Part shown: piece after piece, positions 6,798 to 23,070 of the stretch | How positions within the stretch are numbered: position 1 is the first letter of the stretch | Layout of the letters: the number at the start of each line of letters is the position of its first letter | IMG/VR virus record: IMGVR_UViG_3300046028_010857 | Span: 1 to 34,896 of that record | Reading direction: 5' to 3' (one strand) | DNA length: 34,896 bases | DNA from: a virus | Made by a program: the position numbers and the translations under genes | Notes under the pieces: model-generated | The model's database searches: none | What the model saw: only the letters and a program-made list of their open reading frames with translations | What the model was told of the DNA's origin: nothing

Positions 6798-7727
6798 TCA
6801 AAGGTCAAGTATGCGTTTGGCCAACTGGTGGGTAATGGCATCGGCACCGGCTTCGCGCAATAGGCTCTGTATAGCTCCGCTCAACTCGCCAATGTTGCGG
6901 TAGTGGTCAAATAGCAGTTGTTGTACCTTGCGGTCGGCAATGCCCACGGTATTGCATATATCGGTTACGTCCACCATTTCCATCGGCACCAACTTCTTAA
7001 TGCCACCTTCTTTTATGCGGCGGTATATCTGCGGAAACGAGCGGCGCATACGGTCGCTTTTGGCGCGCAAGGTGTGTTCAAATTCATTGGCACCTATTAC
7101 CACCATACCACAATGCCCTTTAAGCGCATCCATCATGGTCTTAATACTGTCCCATGCGCCATCTTTAAGGTTCTCGCCCTCGTCAATTATCAATAGCGGT
7201 TGGCTGTCGCGTTTAAGGCGGTTCACACAGGCCTTGCGTATCTCGCTGGTGGCACCCGTTACCCGAAGGTTTAGGCTTTCGGCCAGTTCCACCATAAAGC
7301 TCTTGCTCGTTAGGTCGCCACTACAGCGCACCAAGTATGTTTCTTGTGGGCATAATTGCTTGTATCGTTCGGCTGTGTATGTTTTGCCAGCACCGGTGCC
7401 ACCATCAATGCACACGGGCATACGGTGGCCGCGACACTCGGTAAAGGTTTGCACCATGTACTGGTAGTTTATGGTCTCCAAATGTCCCCACGCCTGCGCG
7501 GTGGGCGCATAGCCGCAAGCCTTAGCAATGGCGGCAAAGTATTTATTGTCCAGCGACACCAATTTGTTACCAGCTGGCACCTCGTTCCATTTACCGTTAA
7601 GCATGTGGCTTAAATAGCTTGGGTTGATGCCCGCTAAATCTGAAAAGGCTTTATTGCTAATGCCTTTATCGGTAATGTACGCCGCTGCGGCGGTTACAAT
7701 GTGCTGTTTTTGGGTTTCGTTGAGCAT
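6798..7727 (-). CDS. MuB-like AAA+ ATPase, transposition target activator
   Basis: A 309-residue protein of the usual MuB length. Residues 1-75 form an N-terminal helix-turn-helix (SNKAFSDLAGINPSYLSHMLNGKW). An AAA+ core follows with Walker A GGTGAGKT at 109-116 and Walker B LLIIDEGE at 178-185, then an arginine-rich DRMRRSFPQIYRRI segment near 225-238 and a helical C-terminal domain. In Mu, MuB coats target DNA in an ATP-dependent way, delivers it to the transposase and provides target immunity. It lies 35 bases downstream of the transposase. Its leader contains two copies of ACCATTTAA. Confidence 0.92.
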   Translation of the reverse strand: MLNETQKQHIVTAAAAYITDKGISNKAFSDLAGINPSYLSHMLNGKWNEVPAGNKLVSLDNKYFAAIAKACGYAPTAQAWGHLETINYQYMVQTFTECRGHRMPVCIDGGTGAGKTYTAERYKQLCPQETYLVRCSGDLTSKSFMVELAESLNLRVTGATSEIRKACVNRLKRDSQPLLIIDEGENLKDGAWDSIKTMMDALKGHCGMVVIGANEFEHTLRAKSDRMRRSFPQIYRRIKEGGIKKLVPMEMVDVTDICNTVGIADRKVQQLLFDHYRNIGELSGAIQSLLREAGADAITHQLAKRILDL

Positions 7728-7762: not shown

Positions 7763-10054
7763 TTAAATGGTTCTATTTTTAATAAAATCTCGCTTGCTTT
7801 GGGTGCTGGTTTCCTTCTCTACCGGCACGGCGTGGCCTTGGGTGCGCAATAAGCGGTCGGTGTAATAGTCCGTGCTCTGTTGGGCGCTTGGTGTGGCCAG
7901 TGCATCGGCATAAAGCTCTTCGGTGGTTTCTATCAACTGTTGGCGGTTGCGTTCGCCCGCAACAATGGCACGCTTCTCTGCTATAGTTGCGCCCTCCAGC
8001 AATTCAATGCCCAATACACTCGCTTCCCATTCCACTTGCTTGCGCAGGGTGTTATCCAATACGCTAGCGCGGTCTCTGTCCATTTGCCCAATGCGCGCAA
8101 GGTCGGCGGGCGTTTGCTCGGCCACGCTGCGCTGTGCGCGCTCTAATAGTGTAAGGCTGCACAGGTATCTGTCGGTGTCGGTATCGGCTTTGTCTGTATA
8201 GCCAAACACGGTTACTTCGTCCATGTCGGTTTCGTCAAAGTACACGCGCACCTTATTGCCTTTGGCCATGTGCTGCAAGTGCTGGTGGTATTGCGGCCAA
8301 GCATATTCGTAGGTGCGGCGGTTCACGGTTATCAGTACCTTGGCATTGTTCACAGTGGCTATCGTCCATTGGTTCAATAGCGTTGCGCGGGTTTCGGGTG
8401 CCACCACCGGTGCGGCAGGGTTAAGGTTCTCCAGATACATTTCCATGCGGCTCTTGCCGTTGTATTTGGCAATGGGCTGGTTGTTGTATATGCCCACCAA
8501 CGCTATCAGTTGTTTTACGCCGTGCGCATACGTTTCTTGGGCTTGTATGCCAAGTTCGGTATTGGGCTTGCGCTGGCGGTCAATGCTGGTTATGTTTGTG
8601 CCCTTCCAGCCGTCCACATTCTGCGTTAATCGGTTCAGTTCTTGCAATAAGCGTTCTACAAAGCGCGCTTTAGGGTTACTGGTAAGGCCACGCGGGTCGT
8701 TGGGTTTCGGTTGGGTTACAGTGTTGCAGCAAGCGGTAAATATGCGTTGGGTTTCTTTGGCAAGGTTGCCGCTAAACCTATCGCTCTCTATTTCCATGTA
8801 GCTGCGGCCACCATTAAGGTTTAAATGGTTTAAATACATGTTGCGCACCATCCGGCCATCTTCTACAAGGCCCACATCAAAGCCTGTAACGGCTTCGCTG
8901 GCATAGTCAAACACGGCCACACAGGTAAGCATTACGCGCATTTGCTCCACATTGGTATAAAAATCCACTTGGAAACCATCGTACCCACCTTTGCTCAAGC
9001 TCATTTGCGGGCGTTTGCCGTACACGTGCGGTAAGTATGTTTCGTAAGCTGCCATACCATCGCGCTCCAAGGTGGCAAACTGGCGCACTTCGTTACGATT
9101 AAGAAAGTGCTTTAATGCACTGATGCTTACGGGTTTTTGGTTTTGCTTGGCGCACTCTCGGGTGTAGCGGTAGTGGATATTCTCAAAGTCGAATTTATTG
9201 GCCTTGCCCGGGTTCATAAACAGGTAAAGGATGGTAGCGGCATGAAACTCGCTGATGTCCAACCTATCGCCCAAAAGCACAGGTGTATTGTTTTGCTCCG
9301 TGTCACACCGAGTCTCGCCTGAGGCGAGAAAGTGCGATGTGCGACCGATAATTTGCGTATTGGTGTTGCCAAAATAGCCCGGTACCAATCCATCAAGCGC
9401 GGCATTGTTGGCCGTTGTCAGTGCCTTGTGTTGAGGTCCTTCGTAGGTGGCTAGAACGGCCTGTTGCGCCTTGCGCCAATCCAGTTCTTTATTTTGCAAC
9501 ACACGCAAGTTTTGAACCTTAAACCCATACCGGTGTGTACCATTATTATCACTATCGACAACGATAGCGGCAAGTACCCCGTTTCGCAAATCCATTTTAG
9601 TATCATAGCCAATTATTTTGGTATCGGTGCTGGTTTTGTGAGCATCTAGCATACGCAACCAAGCCGCACCCCACGCAAGGTCTTGGGCTTTATCGGTGGC
9701 CAGTTTGTGGTTTATGCGGTAGTGTTGCACATCGCCCATTTGGTGGTATCGGGCGTGCAGCTCAAGTAATGCGGCCTGTGTGCTCACGTGCTGGCGTATG
9801 GCTTGGCTGGTGGCCTGTTGTGCCGTGGCCTGGTATGGGTCGCCAATTCGGTTTTTAATGGCCTCTTGGTACTTGGGCGCAAGGCCTTCGTAGTTTAGCC
9901 ATACCTCTCTACCCTCTTTAATGTGCGGCCAACACGTGGCTTTACCCTTGCGTTGACGCATAAGGCCCATTTTTAGAGTAGCCTCGCCAACAATGTCATT
10001 GTTCACCAGGGCGGCAAAGCTTATGTGCGGTATATGGTTAATGAGTTTAAGCAT
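7763..10054 (-). CDS. MuA-like DDE transposase
   Basis: A 763-residue transposase, a little longer than MuA (663). The catalytic core has the expected retroviral-integrase layout: D364 in FQVDFYTN, the supporting VFDYASEAVTGFDVG strand, D425 in EIESDRFSGN and E467 in FVERLLQELN. The N-terminal 250 residues should hold the end-binding domains, and the basic C-terminal part should contact MuB. It cuts the phage ends and joins them to target DNA for integration and replication. A 17-bp palindrome (9313-9329) is embedded in the coding region at FLASGETR (residues 242-249). The leader is rich in TTTAAAC repeats. It is the second gene of the early operon. Confidence 0.93.
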   Translation of the reverse strand: MLKLINHIPHISFAALVNNDIVGEATLKMGLMRQRKGKATCWPHIKEGREVWLNYEGLAPKYQEAIKNRIGDPYQATAQQATSQAIRQHVSTQAALLELHARYHQMGDVQHYRINHKLATDKAQDLAWGAAWLRMLDAHKTSTDTKIIGYDTKMDLRNGVLAAIVVDSDNNGTHRYGFKVQNLRVLQNKELDWRKAQQAVLATYEGPQHKALTTANNAALDGLVPGYFGNTNTQIIGRTSHFLASGETRCDTEQNNTPVLLGDRLDISEFHAATILYLFMNPGKANKFDFENIHYRYTRECAKQNQKPVSISALKHFLNRNEVRQFATLERDGMAAYETYLPHVYGKRPQMSLSKGGYDGFQVDFYTNVEQMRVMLTCVAVFDYASEAVTGFDVGLVEDGRMVRNMYLNHLNLNGGRSYMEIESDRFSGNLAKETQRIFTACCNTVTQPKPNDPRGLTSNPKARFVERLLQELNRLTQNVDGWKGTNITSIDRQRKPNTELGIQAQETYAHGVKQLIALVGIYNNQPIAKYNGKSRMEMYLENLNPAAPVVAPETRATLLNQWTIATVNNAKVLITVNRRTYEYAWPQYHQHLQHMAKGNKVRVYFDETDMDEVTVFGYTDKADTDTDRYLCSLTLLERAQRSVAEQTPADLARIGQMDRDRASVLDNTLRKQVEWEASVLGIELLEGATIAEKRAIVAGERNRQQLIETTEELYADALATPSAQQSTDYYTDRLLRTQGHAVPVEKETSTQSKRDFIKNRTI
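9313..9329. repeat. Palindrome inside the transposase gene
   Basis: TCTCGCCT, a central G, then AGGCGAGA form a perfect 8-bp arm palindrome. It is read in frame as FLASGETR within the N-terminal part of the transposase. It resembles the short palindromes scattered through Bacteroidota genomes and may be an inserted REP-like unit that kept the frame open. Confidence 0.5.
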
Positions 10055-20306: not shown

Positions 20307-21422
20307 ATGAAGAATTTTAAACCAAAACGCACGCTCTCCATTGTGGGCCTGTTGTTTAATATTACCATGGCCCTGTTGATTGGCTTGATTGCCAGTGCAA
20401 CTATCGGTGTGCCGGCATTGGCTGTTGCTGGCCCTATCTTGTTGGTAGGCACTGTGCCACAGTTTATTTGGCCAAACCTTATGGCCAACAATATGCCGAA
20501 AGGCGCGTATGTGGCCATTACGGTTACTATTTGGTTATCTCAACTTGAAGAGCTTTTGTTTCCGGATAACAGCTTTGCCGATAGGGCCGTTGACGATACG
20601 CCTTTTGTTTCGTCCGGGGGCAATACCGTAGTGATACCACAGAGTGGAGCTGCACCTAACGTAGAGGTAAATAGGTCTAACTTGCCTGCCGCCATTAGCC
20701 AACGCACCGATACAACCAATGATTACCCATTGGAGTTTTTGACCAGTGACCCTACGCTAATAACCGATATTGAGCAATTAGAGGTGAGTTATCCTAAGTT
20801 GCAATCAATCTTGATGCCGCACGCCCAGGCTATCGAAACAAAGGCCGCTGCCACCTTGGCTGTGAACTGGACACCTGATGGTGCTGATAACCAAGTGCGC
20901 ACTACCGGTGCAAGCCGCCCTGCTGGTTCGCCTGGTGCCACCGGCAGCCGTAAGGCGCTTACCCGTGCCGATTTTGTGGATGGCCTTACCTTGCTTCGCC
21001 GTATGGATGTGCCAATAAATGGCATCTGTGCCTTGGTGCCCGCATCAATGCTTGGTGACTTGTTTAAGATTGATGATTTCGTGCATGTGGACAAGATTGG
21101 TGGCGACGCATTGCGCAGCGGTATTATCGGTCGCATCTTAGGTGTTGATTTGTATATCCGCTCTACCGGTGTAGTGTTTACCAACGCTAGTCCTCCGGTA
21201 AAGAAAGCGTACAACGCCGCTACTACTACTGCCGATAATGAAGCTATCATTATGTGGCACCCCAACTTTGTGCGCAAAGCCAAAGGCCAGTTAAAGGTTT
21301 ACGAGAAAATTGACGACCCTGCTTATTACGGTTCGCTGTTTTCTGCAAGCCTTTACTATGGTGGTAAATATGGCCGCAGCGACAAAAAAGGTATTGTGGC
21401 TATCATTGAAGCCCACGCCTAA
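20307..21422 (+). CDS. Major capsid protein
   Basis: A 371-residue protein in the capsid slot after protease-scaffold. The body from residue about 85 reads as an HK97-fold capsid: LPAAISQRTDTTNDYPLEFLTSDPTLI, a Q-rich E-loop region and a C-terminal IIMWHPNFVRKAKGQLKVYEKIDDPAYYGSLFSASLYYGGKYGR. Oddly, residues 9-50 are two hydrophobic segments (LSIVGLLFNITMALLIGLIAS and ALAVAGPILLVGTV) after a basic start, like a membrane anchor. Either the protease removes this part or immature capsid forms on the membrane. ATG 20307 follows an AACCCATTTAAC leader. Confidence 0.8.
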   Translation: MKNFKPKRTLSIVGLLFNITMALLIGLIASATIGVPALAVAGPILLVGTVPQFIWPNLMANNMPKGAYVAITVTIWLSQLEELLFPDNSFADRAVDDTPFVSSGGNTVVIPQSGAAPNVEVNRSNLPAAISQRTDTTNDYPLEFLTSDPTLITDIEQLEVSYPKLQSILMPHAQAIETKAAATLAVNWTPDGADNQVRTTGASRPAGSPGATGSRKALTRADFVDGLTLLRRMDVPINGICALVPASMLGDLFKIDDFVHVDKIGGDALRSGIIGRILGVDLYIRSTGVVFTNASPPVKKAYNAATTTADNEAIIMWHPNFVRKAKGQLKVYEKIDDPAYYGSLFSASLYYGGKYGRSDKKGIVAIIEAHA

Positions 21423-21425
21423 ACC

Positions 21426-21671
21426 ATGGAGCTGATAGAGATAATTGTTTCGGTCGGCGGTGGGTTTATAGTATTGCTTCTTTCAATAGTGGCATACTTT
21501 CTGAAAAACCTACACTCCCAACTGCAAACTATGGATAAGGACTTTAAAGAGGTTATAACCAAGTTGGCGGTAATGGACGAGCGAACCAAGAATAATCACG
21601 AAGAACAAAATGGCCGATTTCGGCAAATAGAGCATAGGTTGACCCAGTTGGAAAACTGGCGAAACAAATAG
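21426..21671 (+). CDS. Membrane-anchored coiled-coil protein (lysis type)
   Basis: An 81-residue protein with an N-terminal membrane helix (IEIIVSVGGGFIVLLLSIVAYFL, residues 3-25) and a coiled coil (LHSQLQTMDKDFKEVITKLAVMDERTKN...FRQIEHRLTQLENW). The layout resembles XhlA/hemolysin-type or small holin-like proteins. It directly precedes the tRNA and the endolysin, which supports a lysis role such as holin or holin partner. Four bases after the capsid stop. Confidence 0.6.
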   Translation: MELIEIIVSVGGGFIVLLLSIVAYFLKNLHSQLQTMDKDFKEVITKLAVMDERTKNNHEEQNGRFRQIEHRLTQLENWRNK

Positions 21672-21675
21672 CATA

Positions 21676-21754
21676 CCCACGCCTTGCGGCCCCTTGCGTT
21701 CAAGCCTCAAGTAACCATAACATAGCTTGGTAGCCAAGCAGCCCAGGGCGTGGG
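21676..21754 (+). other. Structured RNA element 5' of the tRNA
   Basis: CCCACGCC (21676-21683) pairs perfectly with GGCGTGGG (21747-21754), closing a 79-nt domain. Inside it GCTTGG-TAG-CCAAGC (21725-21739) is a perfect 6-bp hairpin. It starts 5 bases after the upstream stop and ends 7 bases before the tRNA. It could be a tRNA-processing leader, an mRNA 3' protector or an independent RNA. It is not a tRNA itself. Confidence 0.55.
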
Positions 21755-21761
21755 ATAATAT

Positions 21762-21834
21762 CGCGGGATGGCGCAGATGGTAGCGCGACGGGCTCATAAT
21801 CCGTAGGTCGGGGGTTCGAGTCCCTCTCCCGCAA
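21762..21834 (+). tRNA. tRNA-Met (CAU), initiator-like
   Basis: A complete 73-nt cloverleaf. Acceptor CGCGGGA pairs with TCCCGCA except for the first pair, which is C1:A72, the unpaired end that marks bacterial initiator tRNA. D-stem GCGC/GCGC; anticodon stem ACGGG/TCCGT with loop CTCATAA and anticodon CAT at 21795-21797; T-arm GGGGG-TTCGAGT-CCCTC; discriminator A. The anticodon stem has G29:C41 and G30:C40 but G31:U39 in place of the third G:C. C11:G24 is elongator-like. CCA is not encoded. It is in the sense direction of the late genes, between the lysis gene and the endolysin. An Ile (k2C) tRNA with the same anticodon is less likely because of C1:A72. Confidence 0.9.
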
Positions 21835-21862
21835 CATAACCCCAAAACGAGAGCGCAGAGGC

Positions 21863-21888
21863 GGAGGGTGGCAAACGTGCCACCCTCC
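21863..21888 (+). other. Strong hairpin after the tRNA
   Basis: GGAGGGTGGCA (21863-21873) pairs perfectly with TGCCACCCTCC (21878-21888) around an AACG loop. There is no T-run after it. It could be a processing site that frees the tRNA 3' end or a partial attenuator before the endolysin. Its sequence overlaps an in-frame GTG, which is why the upstream start of the endolysin was rejected. Confidence 0.6.
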
Positions 21889-21897
21889 AATTCAAAA

Positions 21898-21933
21898 CCA
21901 GTAACCAATAACGCATCAACCAATAACCAAACA
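21898..21933 (+). repeat. Degenerate heptamer array in the endolysin leader
   Basis: CCAGTAA, CCAATAA, an 8-base CGCATCAA unit, CCAATAA and CCAAACA follow each other up to the ATG at 21937. This is the same roughly 7-base rhythm as at 18527, 31131 and 32661, but less exact. Confidence 0.45.
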
Positions 21934-21936
21934 CCA

Positions 21937-23070
21937 ATGGCACAGTTTACCCCAGCATACGAAATAGGCAAGGCCAACGAAGGCGGGTATGTAAACGACC
22001 CCAAGGATAGCGGTGGCGAAACCTACAAAGGTATTGCCCGCAAGTTCCACGGCGATTGGCCATGTTGGGCGGCTATCGATGCCGCTGGTGAGATGCACGG
22101 TAAAGGCACTAGGGCCTTTGTTGGAGCTTTGGAAATAGATAGCCATGTGCAGAATATGGTTATCGCATTCTACCGCGCCAAGTTTTGGAAACCACTGATG
22201 GGCGACCAGTTGCCAAGCCAAGCCATTGCCAATGAGTTGTACGACACCGCCATTAACCAGGGCGTGGGCCAAGCGGTAAAGTTCCTTCAGCAAAGCCTTA
22301 ACCTATTGAACGATGGTGGCGCGCTGTATGCCGATATTGAAGTGGATGGCCAAATGGGACCAGGCACCTTGCGCGCCCTTAATACCTATTTTGGCACTCG
22401 CCCAACCCAACGGGTTGATGCAAAAGAGAAAGTGCTATTGAAAGCCCTTAACGGCTTTCAGTTCCAGCGATATGTAACGGTTACTCCTGGTGAGGACCAC
22501 AAAAACGAACGCTTTTTTTACGGGTGGCTCAATACCCGTATAGCAATGATGCTGGTTTTAGTTGGATTTACGGCTGCTTTCGGTGGGTGTCGGTCTTTAA
22601 AAGACTCATCTACCGAGGCAACCGTAACCAATGCCGCCACTACCGATAGTGTCATGTATCGCGAAAAGTTGGTGCCGTATTTGGTTGAAGTACCGGGAGA
22701 AGTGGTATTTACCGAATTGGATAATCCATGTGATAGCCTGGGCAATTTAAAGCCTCTTGAAACGGCCGTTAAAGGTAAGCGCAATGCCACTGTTACCGTA
22801 ACCACCAAAAACAATAAGTTGCGAGTAAGCGGCGGTTGTGATGTTTACCGCGATAGTGTGCTGGTGCTCAATACCCAATTAGAGCGCTACCGAAACAACG
22901 CTACTAGTACCGTCCGTACCAAAGAAACCATTAAGCAAGTAAAGTATACGCCCAAATGGCTGCGCTTCCAGTGGCTATTGCTATATGCGGCGGCCATTTA
23001 TATGGCAGGCCACTTTAGGTTGGTTACCAAAGCTTTCAGATTAATCGTAAAACTTTCAACAGGAATATAA
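21937..23070 (+). CDS. GH108-type endolysin fused to a spanin-like lipoprotein
   Basis: A 377-residue protein. Residues 1-200 are a GH108 lysozyme with the catalytic-glutamate motif NEGGYVNDPKDSGGETYKGI and a peptidoglycan-binding part ending FFYGWLNTRI, where such enzymes normally stop. The frame continues with MMLVLVGFTAAFGGC (lipobox-like, Cys218), a 115-residue periplasmic stretch and a C-terminal membrane helix (FQWLLLYAAAIYMAGHF, 344-360). Lipobox plus C-terminal helix is the layout of a unimolecular spanin that joins inner and outer membranes. The internal ATG at 22546 could start the spanin separately. ATG 21937 was chosen because earlier codons run through the hairpin. Confidence 0.82.
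   Translation: MAQFTPAYEIGKANEGGYVNDPKDSGGETYKGIARKFHGDWPCWAAIDAAGEMHGKGTRAFVGALEIDSHVQNMVIAFYRAKFWKPLMGDQLPSQAIANELYDTAINQGVGQAVKFLQQSLNLLNDGGALYADIEVDGQMGPGTLRALNTYFGTRPTQRVDAKEKVLLKALNGFQFQRYVTVTPGEDHKNERFFYGWLNTRIAMMLVLVGFTAAFGGCRSLKDSSTEATVTNAATTDSVMYREKLVPYLVEVPGEVVFTELDNPCDSLGNLKPLETAVKGKRNATVTVTTKNNKLRVSGGCDVYRDSVLVLNTQLERYRNNATSTVRTKETIKQVKYTPKWLRFQWLLLYAAAIYMAGHFRLVTKAFRLIVKLSTGI

Follow-up and report, generated by a model that had tools for sequence, protein, structure and literature searches.

Why a bacteriophage should carry its own initiator tRNA is the question raised by the locus analysed in the present study. The tRNA genes of phages have so far been attributed to codon supply and, lately, to the evasion of nucleases whose targets are elongator tRNAs. 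Since codon supply for elongation cannot explain an initiator, a phage-borne initiator tRNA offers a clean test case; in the literature searched, such tRNAs received passing mentions only. The gene lies in a viral IMG/VR record of 34,896 bases (34.9 kb), the whole of which is referred to here as the window. An earlier note, made from the sequence, had described the tRNA as a mosaic of initiator and elongator marks that might raise or redirect start-codon choice.

The virus and its late operon

Judging from its gene content, the virus is a Mu-like myophage of Bacteroidota, with the tRNA in the late capsid/head operon. The left half of the window, on the minus strand, encodes MuB, a transposase-like protein, the portal and the terminases, and the right half, on the plus strand, encodes a protease, the major head protein, a small ORF, the tRNA, a GH108 endolysin, and the sheath, tape measure and baseplate proteins. 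The MuB-like transposition ATPase (6798..7727, minus strand) matched PHROG 296 (E = 1e-35) and the Pfam families AAA_22 and TniB. The Mu-type DDE transposase (7763..10054, minus strand) was recognised by distant similarity, namely a weak Mu-transpos_C match and, in one pairwise comparison, 20% identity over 592 aa (E = 1e-6) to a putative transposase of the DDE type in Flavobacterium phage fF4. The terminase relatives are mostly phages and prophages of Bacteroidota, including fF4, transposable Porphyromonas phages and Hankyphage p00. The gene order, with terminase and head operons pointing away from each other and a transposase (with MuB where annotated), is shared with fF4, Porphyromonas phage006a_EM3 and Bacteroides Hankyphage p00, whereas no initiator tRNA was found in the compared regions of those three. 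Hankyphage p00 has a tRNA-Arg annotated beside its transposase (L484 25771-25854), a different tRNA in a different place, and phage006a_EM3 has a "formyl transferase" annotation at the right end of its genome (L482 34579-35052).

The immediate neighbours of the tRNA, all on the plus strand, bear out its late-operon position, as the earlier note had supposed. Upstream lies the major head protein (20307..21422; PHROG 267, E = 8e-27), the syntenic anchor in the relatives, followed by an ORF of 81 aa with a hydrophobic N-terminal segment (21426..21671; weak PHROG 6179); the next gene downstream is the GH108 endolysin (21937..23070; Pfam PF05838, E = 1e-19), for which the start check favoured ATG at 21937 over GTG at 21868. 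An exact-pattern search of viral contigs for the head protein gave no match. The tRNA is flanked by a long imperfect hairpin just 5' of it (21676..21754, plus strand; -38.3 kcal/mol, z = -4.5), which may be a processing or spacing element, and by an 11-bp hairpin 3' of it, without a T run (21863..21888, plus strand; -25.5 kcal/mol over 21835-21905, z = -5.0). Immediately 5' of the tRNA, a single weak sigma-70-like site, not above chance, was observed; its second hexamer ends at 21759, too near the tRNA start, and the site was therefore rejected as the promoter of the tRNA.

Isotype of the window tRNA

An intact tRNA-Met(cat) was called by ARAGORN at 21762-21835 on the plus strand, and Rfam RF00005 matched 21762-21834 with 63.5 bits over the full model; the E value of 1e-11 places this match far above chance. 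The gene (21762..21834) reads CGCGGGA TG GCGC AGATGGTA GCGC G ACGGG CTCATAA TCCGT AGGTC GGGGG TTCGAGT CCCTC TCCCGCA A. In the cmscan alignment to RF00005, the only non-standard pair is 1:72, with C1 (21762) unpaired with A72. In the ARAGORN parse, A72 and the discriminator A73 (21833..21834) end the gene without an encoded CCA, the following bases being CATAA. C11 (21772) pairs with G24 (21785), and the anticodon arm (21788..21804) is ACGGG-CUCAUAA-UCCGU with the anticodon CAU at 21795..21797. All the marks listed in the earlier note (C1:A72, C11:G24, two of the three anticodon-stem G:C pairs, here G29:C41 and G30:C40, and G31:U39) are thus present in the sequence and in the ARAGORN and Rfam results. 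No second tRNA was detected in the record by ARAGORN or Rfam scans. The minimum-free-energy fold of the bare RNA is not the cloverleaf; as this is common for unmodified tRNAs, nothing was concluded from it.

Covariance models trained on chromosomal tRNAs of Bacteroidota scored the window tRNA at 89.5 bits as initiator (n=13), 71.7 as elongator Met (n=9) and 61.2 as Ile2 (n=11), so that the isotype comparison suggested in the earlier note came out for the initiator. The window tRNA is very probably of the initiator class. An elongator Met identity was rejected on the unpaired C1:A72, the D-loop of 8 rather than 9 nt and the lower score, and an Ile2(CAU) identity on C1:A72, the lower score, and G4:C69 and G5:C68 where host Ile2 has C4:G69 and C5:G68.

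The mosaic character also holds against the host sample of 25 Bacteroidota initiators (17 unique), all with A11:U24 and the arm NNGGG-CUCAUAA-CCCNN. The window tRNA shares CAU, A73, the unpaired 1:72, G29:C41 and G30:C40 with host tRNAfMet (Bacteroidota and E. coli metZWV), and its 8-nt D-loop is that of most sampled Bacteroidota initiators. In contrast, neither C11:G24 nor G31:U39, a wobble replacing G31:C39, was found in the 17 unique host initiators, and pair 27:43 is A:U where the host has U:A. C11:G24 is shared with the sampled host elongator Met and Ile2 tRNAs, which have a 9-nt D-loop and a paired 1:72, and the anticodon arm is one base (A31 to G) from that of one host Ile2 (L478). A pattern scan of 297 Bacteroidota genomes found no initiator with C11:G24, compared with 81 genomes with the canonical form under a similarly strict pattern. 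The acceptor and the D-loop length are therefore those of an initiator, whereas pair 11:24 is of the elongator type and the third pair of the anticodon stem is softened. Bacterial tRNAfMet has three consecutive G:C pairs at 29:41, 30:40 and 31:39; because 31:39 is G:U here, the tRNA was filed as an initiator-type variant rather than a canonical initiator.

Altered anticodon arms in relatives and other viruses

Relatives were collected as 95 loci from a terminase-profile search and were scanned with ARAGORN and the initiator covariance model. A CAU tRNA was found in L004, L015, L136, L172, L173, L174, L175, L176, L186, L203 and L204, among which L173/L175 and L203/L204 are apparent near-duplicates, and was carried by relatives with terminase identities down to about 32%. 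Most of the 95 loci, many of which are fragments, contained no such tRNA, and the other tRNAs in them were only a weak SeC-like call in L153, a tRNA-like element in L159 and a pair of "???" calls by ARAGORN that carry no information. The L159 element (9714-9773, minus strand) is 60 nt long and has acceptor, D and T arms but lacks the anticodon arm. In the window, L015, L136, L172, L173, L175 and L176, the tRNA and the head gene share a strand, and the tRNA follows at a distance of 0.1-1.1 kb; the terminases of this set are only about 33-55% identical. The initiator-type tRNAs of L173 (3337-3421, minus strand) and L175 (6626-6710, minus strand), directly past the head gene and with the loop UUCAUAC, have a D-arm about 12 nt larger, resembling a small extra hairpin.

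With the host-trained models, the initiator gave the best score in 7 of the 8 relatives compared, the exception being L176 (elongator 81.1, initiator 72.1), which pairs A1:U72. All other family tRNAs keep the 1:72 mismatch, and most resemble initiators in having A11:U24 and a short D-loop. The anticodon arms, in contrast, are unlike those of every sampled host initiator: UCGGA-UUCAUAA-UCCGA in L015, CCAGA-CUCAUAA-UCUGG in L136, GAGGG-UUCAUAC-CCCUC in L172, UCAGG-UUCAUAC-CCUGA in L173, CCAGG-UUCAUAC-CCUGG in L174, CAAGA-UUCAUGA-UCUUG in L176, CAAGG-UUCAUUC-CCUUG in L186, UGAGG-UUCAUUC-CCUCA in L203 and GCGGG-CUCAUAU-CCCGC in L004. Across nine family tRNAs, counting only positions that do not vary among the 17 host initiators, 31 of 81 cells were changed in the anticodon arm, compared with 9 of 207 elsewhere (odds ratio 13.6, Fisher p = 2e-12), figures to be read as an effect size since paired positions and related sequences were treated as independent. 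The changed positions in the relatives are 29:41, 31:39, 32, 37 and 38, of which 37 and 38 never varied in the sampled host initiators. Among 12 aligned family sequences, cloverleaf pairs were retained in 97.9% of cells, covariation was 0.477 (0.168 when shuffled), and the anticodon stem was paired in all 12, with two-sided changes in four of its five pairs; CAU, U33, G2:C71 and A73 are invariant in the family. The stem pairing and the two-sided changes point to selection on a folded, changing arm and not to decay. In the window, the inner pairs of the arm differ from the host by one base (C39 to U), which places it with the least altered of the family, so that this tRNA appears to be a mild member of a rebuilt-arm class, with C11:G24 as an added change.

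No support was found for regarding phage initiator tRNAs as exceptional. A strict initiator scan returned 75 viral contigs, and C11:G24 was present in 17 of 82 parsed viral CAU tRNAs, or about a fifth. In IMG/VR, an initiator D-arm followed by CAU was found with position 38 other than A in at least 120 contigs and with position 37 other than A in 48, giving at least 168 contig matches with an altered anticodon loop in all. Among the matches listed, 146 unique altered-loop tRNAs had a non-pairing 1:72 in 112 cases, A73 in 127 and all three G:C pairs in only 41, and in 122 of 166 loci no second tRNA was present in the surrounding sequence examined. A further scan with one fixed D-arm, in which the arm was constrained only to CAU and its flanking YU, gave 120 unique tRNAs; 39 had fully canonical arms, 95 had the loop CUCAUAA, and 75 of 115 parsed were changed at 29-31 or 37-41, all approximate proportions, as this set includes loci from the earlier altered-loop scans. 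A separate viral tRNA(CAU) type, with the reversed mismatch A1:C72, C11:G24 and intact GGG:CCC, was observed in L026, L032, L053, L059, L069, L073 and L078.

On chromosomes, the pattern with a changed position 38 was found in only 4 of 297 Bacteroidota genomes, and two of these matches are degenerate fragments beside a normal gene (G058 and G219). At those two loci (L459 and L460), arrays of degenerate initiator pieces adjoin the intact initiator gene, each piece containing CTCATAT and then a short inverted repeat. Another of the four, L458, is an altered-arm initiator (CAUGG-UUCAUAC-CCAUG, C1:C72) located by a CI-like repressor and a tyrosine-integrase-like ORF. From these scans, we tentatively suggest that many phage groups may carry an undescribed class of tRNA, with initiator acceptor, D and T arms and a rebuilt anticodon stem-loop, usually alone, that would act as nuclease-proof spare initiators; we place this somewhat short of an even chance. 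Since the matched chromosomal baseline covers Bacteroidota only, this wide claim is weaker than that for the family.

A proposed spare initiator and its alternatives

Herein, we propose that the window tRNA is a working tRNA of the initiator class, made late as a spare and poorly recognised by host anticodon-loop nucleases such as VapC, a reading that we hold to be evenly poised between right and wrong. The 1:72 mismatch is the main formylation determinant and A11:U24 a secondary one, and a chimera in which the anticodon arm of an elongator is joined to the acceptor of an initiator was fully formylated (PMC4611024). Pairs 29:41 and 30:40 touch G1338 and A1339 of 16S rRNA (PMC4611024). By established biochemistry, host MetRS would charge the window tRNA through CAU. 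Host Met-tRNA formyltransferase would act on it because of C1:A72, but less well than on the host's own, because C11:G24 replaces the secondary determinant. The mismatch would largely bar it from elongation, and G29:C41 and G30:C40 would permit use in the ribosomal P site. As the 1:72 mismatch and the two pairs that touch 16S rRNA are all retained, the tRNA could plausibly be charged, formylated and used in the P site, if perhaps somewhat less well than the host tRNA. It would be cotranscribed with the capsid genes at a late stage of infection.

The rebuilt anticodon arm would then make the tRNA a poor substrate for VapC/PIN-type nucleases, and phage translation could start once the host tRNAfMet pool is cut. 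VapC cuts tRNAfMet between the anticodon stem and loop (PMC8522696); the window change at position 39 adjoins that junction, which may or may not be where a Bacteroidota nuclease would cut. Altered anticodon loops in phage tRNAs have been put forward as a means of evading the anticodon nucleases of the host (van den Berg 2023, PMC10264068). Defence by tRNA cutting can be overcome with tRNAs that the phage supplies (PMC11555353, a study that also cites the action of T5 tRNA-Lys against PARIS). As a counterpoint, phages were reported generally to avoid encoding tRNAfMet where VapC-LT2 is present (PMC10264068). In four of five genomes holding terminase relatives, 11-19 PIN-domain proteins each were found, which are candidate nucleases at most. 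PIN domains are common, and we know of no Bacteroidota nuclease shown to cut tRNAfMet. Within the inner pairs, the departure of the window from the host is only C39 to U, which alone would not suggest nuclease escape; in the relatives, the anticodon arm is the changing part, which points to conflict with an anticodon-loop nuclease more than to codon supply. In this virus and its viral relatives, the arm has been rebuilt and the remainder of the tRNA kept, possibly so that the host cannot cut the tRNA during infection.

Several other explanations must be weighed against this proposal. The phage might simply add an initiator for late initiation, or the weakened third G:C pair might relax P-site/IF3 checking and favour unusual starts, the host being one that does not select by Shine-Dalgarno sites. 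The late-operon position fits such a role, as do the two G:C pairs kept beside a weakened third and the window genes checked, none of which has an evident upstream Shine-Dalgarno site; the prevalence of the normal loop CUCAUAA in the approximate wider set (95 of 120) fits plain dosage. However, plain dosage leaves the concentration of changes in the anticodon arm of the relatives unexplained, the anticodon is CAU throughout, and an ATG start is possible for the window genes checked. The TTG starts, through which start-codon choice was earlier thought to be redirected, proved to be a product of mechanical ORF calling: in the TTG frames checked, an in-frame ATG lies 3 to 34 codons downstream, preceded in most cases by an A-rich leader without a Shine-Dalgarno site, and that suggestion thereby lost its support. 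We consider extra supply or altered start selection unlikely. A general Met reserve serving both initiation and elongation, through C11:G24 and an elongator-like arm, might be read from L015, in which such an arm is joined to an initiator acceptor, from the elongator score and paired A1:U72 of L176, and from the single base separating the window arm from that of host Ile2; yet the 1:72 mismatch of every family member but L176 works against EF-Tu use, and most members have initiator-like A11:U24 and short D-loops, so that dual use seems quite improbable.

Decay, with an initiator taken from the host and now drifting unused, would agree with the lack of the tRNA in most relatives, the missing anticodon arm of L159 and the D-loop insertion of L173. 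We judge it very improbable, as drift would not leave the acceptor, D and T arms spared, the two-sided changes restore pairing, CAU, U33, G2:C71 and A73 do not vary, and the position is conserved over deep divergence. The least credible explanation is tRNA-dependent lysogeny, established in mycobacteriophages (PMC10865867), in which a phage tRNA makes up for a host tRNA gene that integration has disrupted; the window phage encodes MuB and a transposase of the Mu type, its genes revealed no integrase directed at tRNA genes, and the tRNA is located in the late operon.

Initiators are held to be marked, almost universally, by the anticodon-stem G:C pairs, A37 and A38. Phages appear to break these marks repeatedly while keeping the 1:72 mismatch, and might therefore provide natural experiments on what an initiator requires. 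The altered phage initiators also point to a possible tRNAfMet-cutting defence in Bacteroidota; if many phage groups do carry nuclease-proof spare initiators, translation initiation itself would be contested between phages and the tRNAfMet-cutting systems of their hosts. The window tRNA is of more interest as a member of a rebuilt-arm class of phage initiators than as a lone mosaic.

Comparable tRNAs are on record in named, cultured phages, which makes the idea testable. An initiator acceptor with an altered anticodon arm is shared with LoVEphage and BI-TP1 (loop AUCAUAG in both), PaMx74 (CCGGG-UUCAUAC-UCCGG, likewise with G31:U39) and CN1A (CCAGG-CUCAUAU-CCUGG). These tRNAs and those of Variovorax VBv52 and Lak-B1, the last fully canonical, belong to other phage groups and, unlike the window tRNA, have A11:U24. 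Nuclease-evading phage tRNAs (PMC10264068, PMC11555353) resemble the window tRNA in having an anticodon arm unlike that of the host (here C39 to U and pair 27:43, and far more in the relatives) with the marks for charging and decoding kept. Those tRNAs, however, are elongators, often in large arrays, whereas here the tRNA is of the initiator type and usually stands alone.
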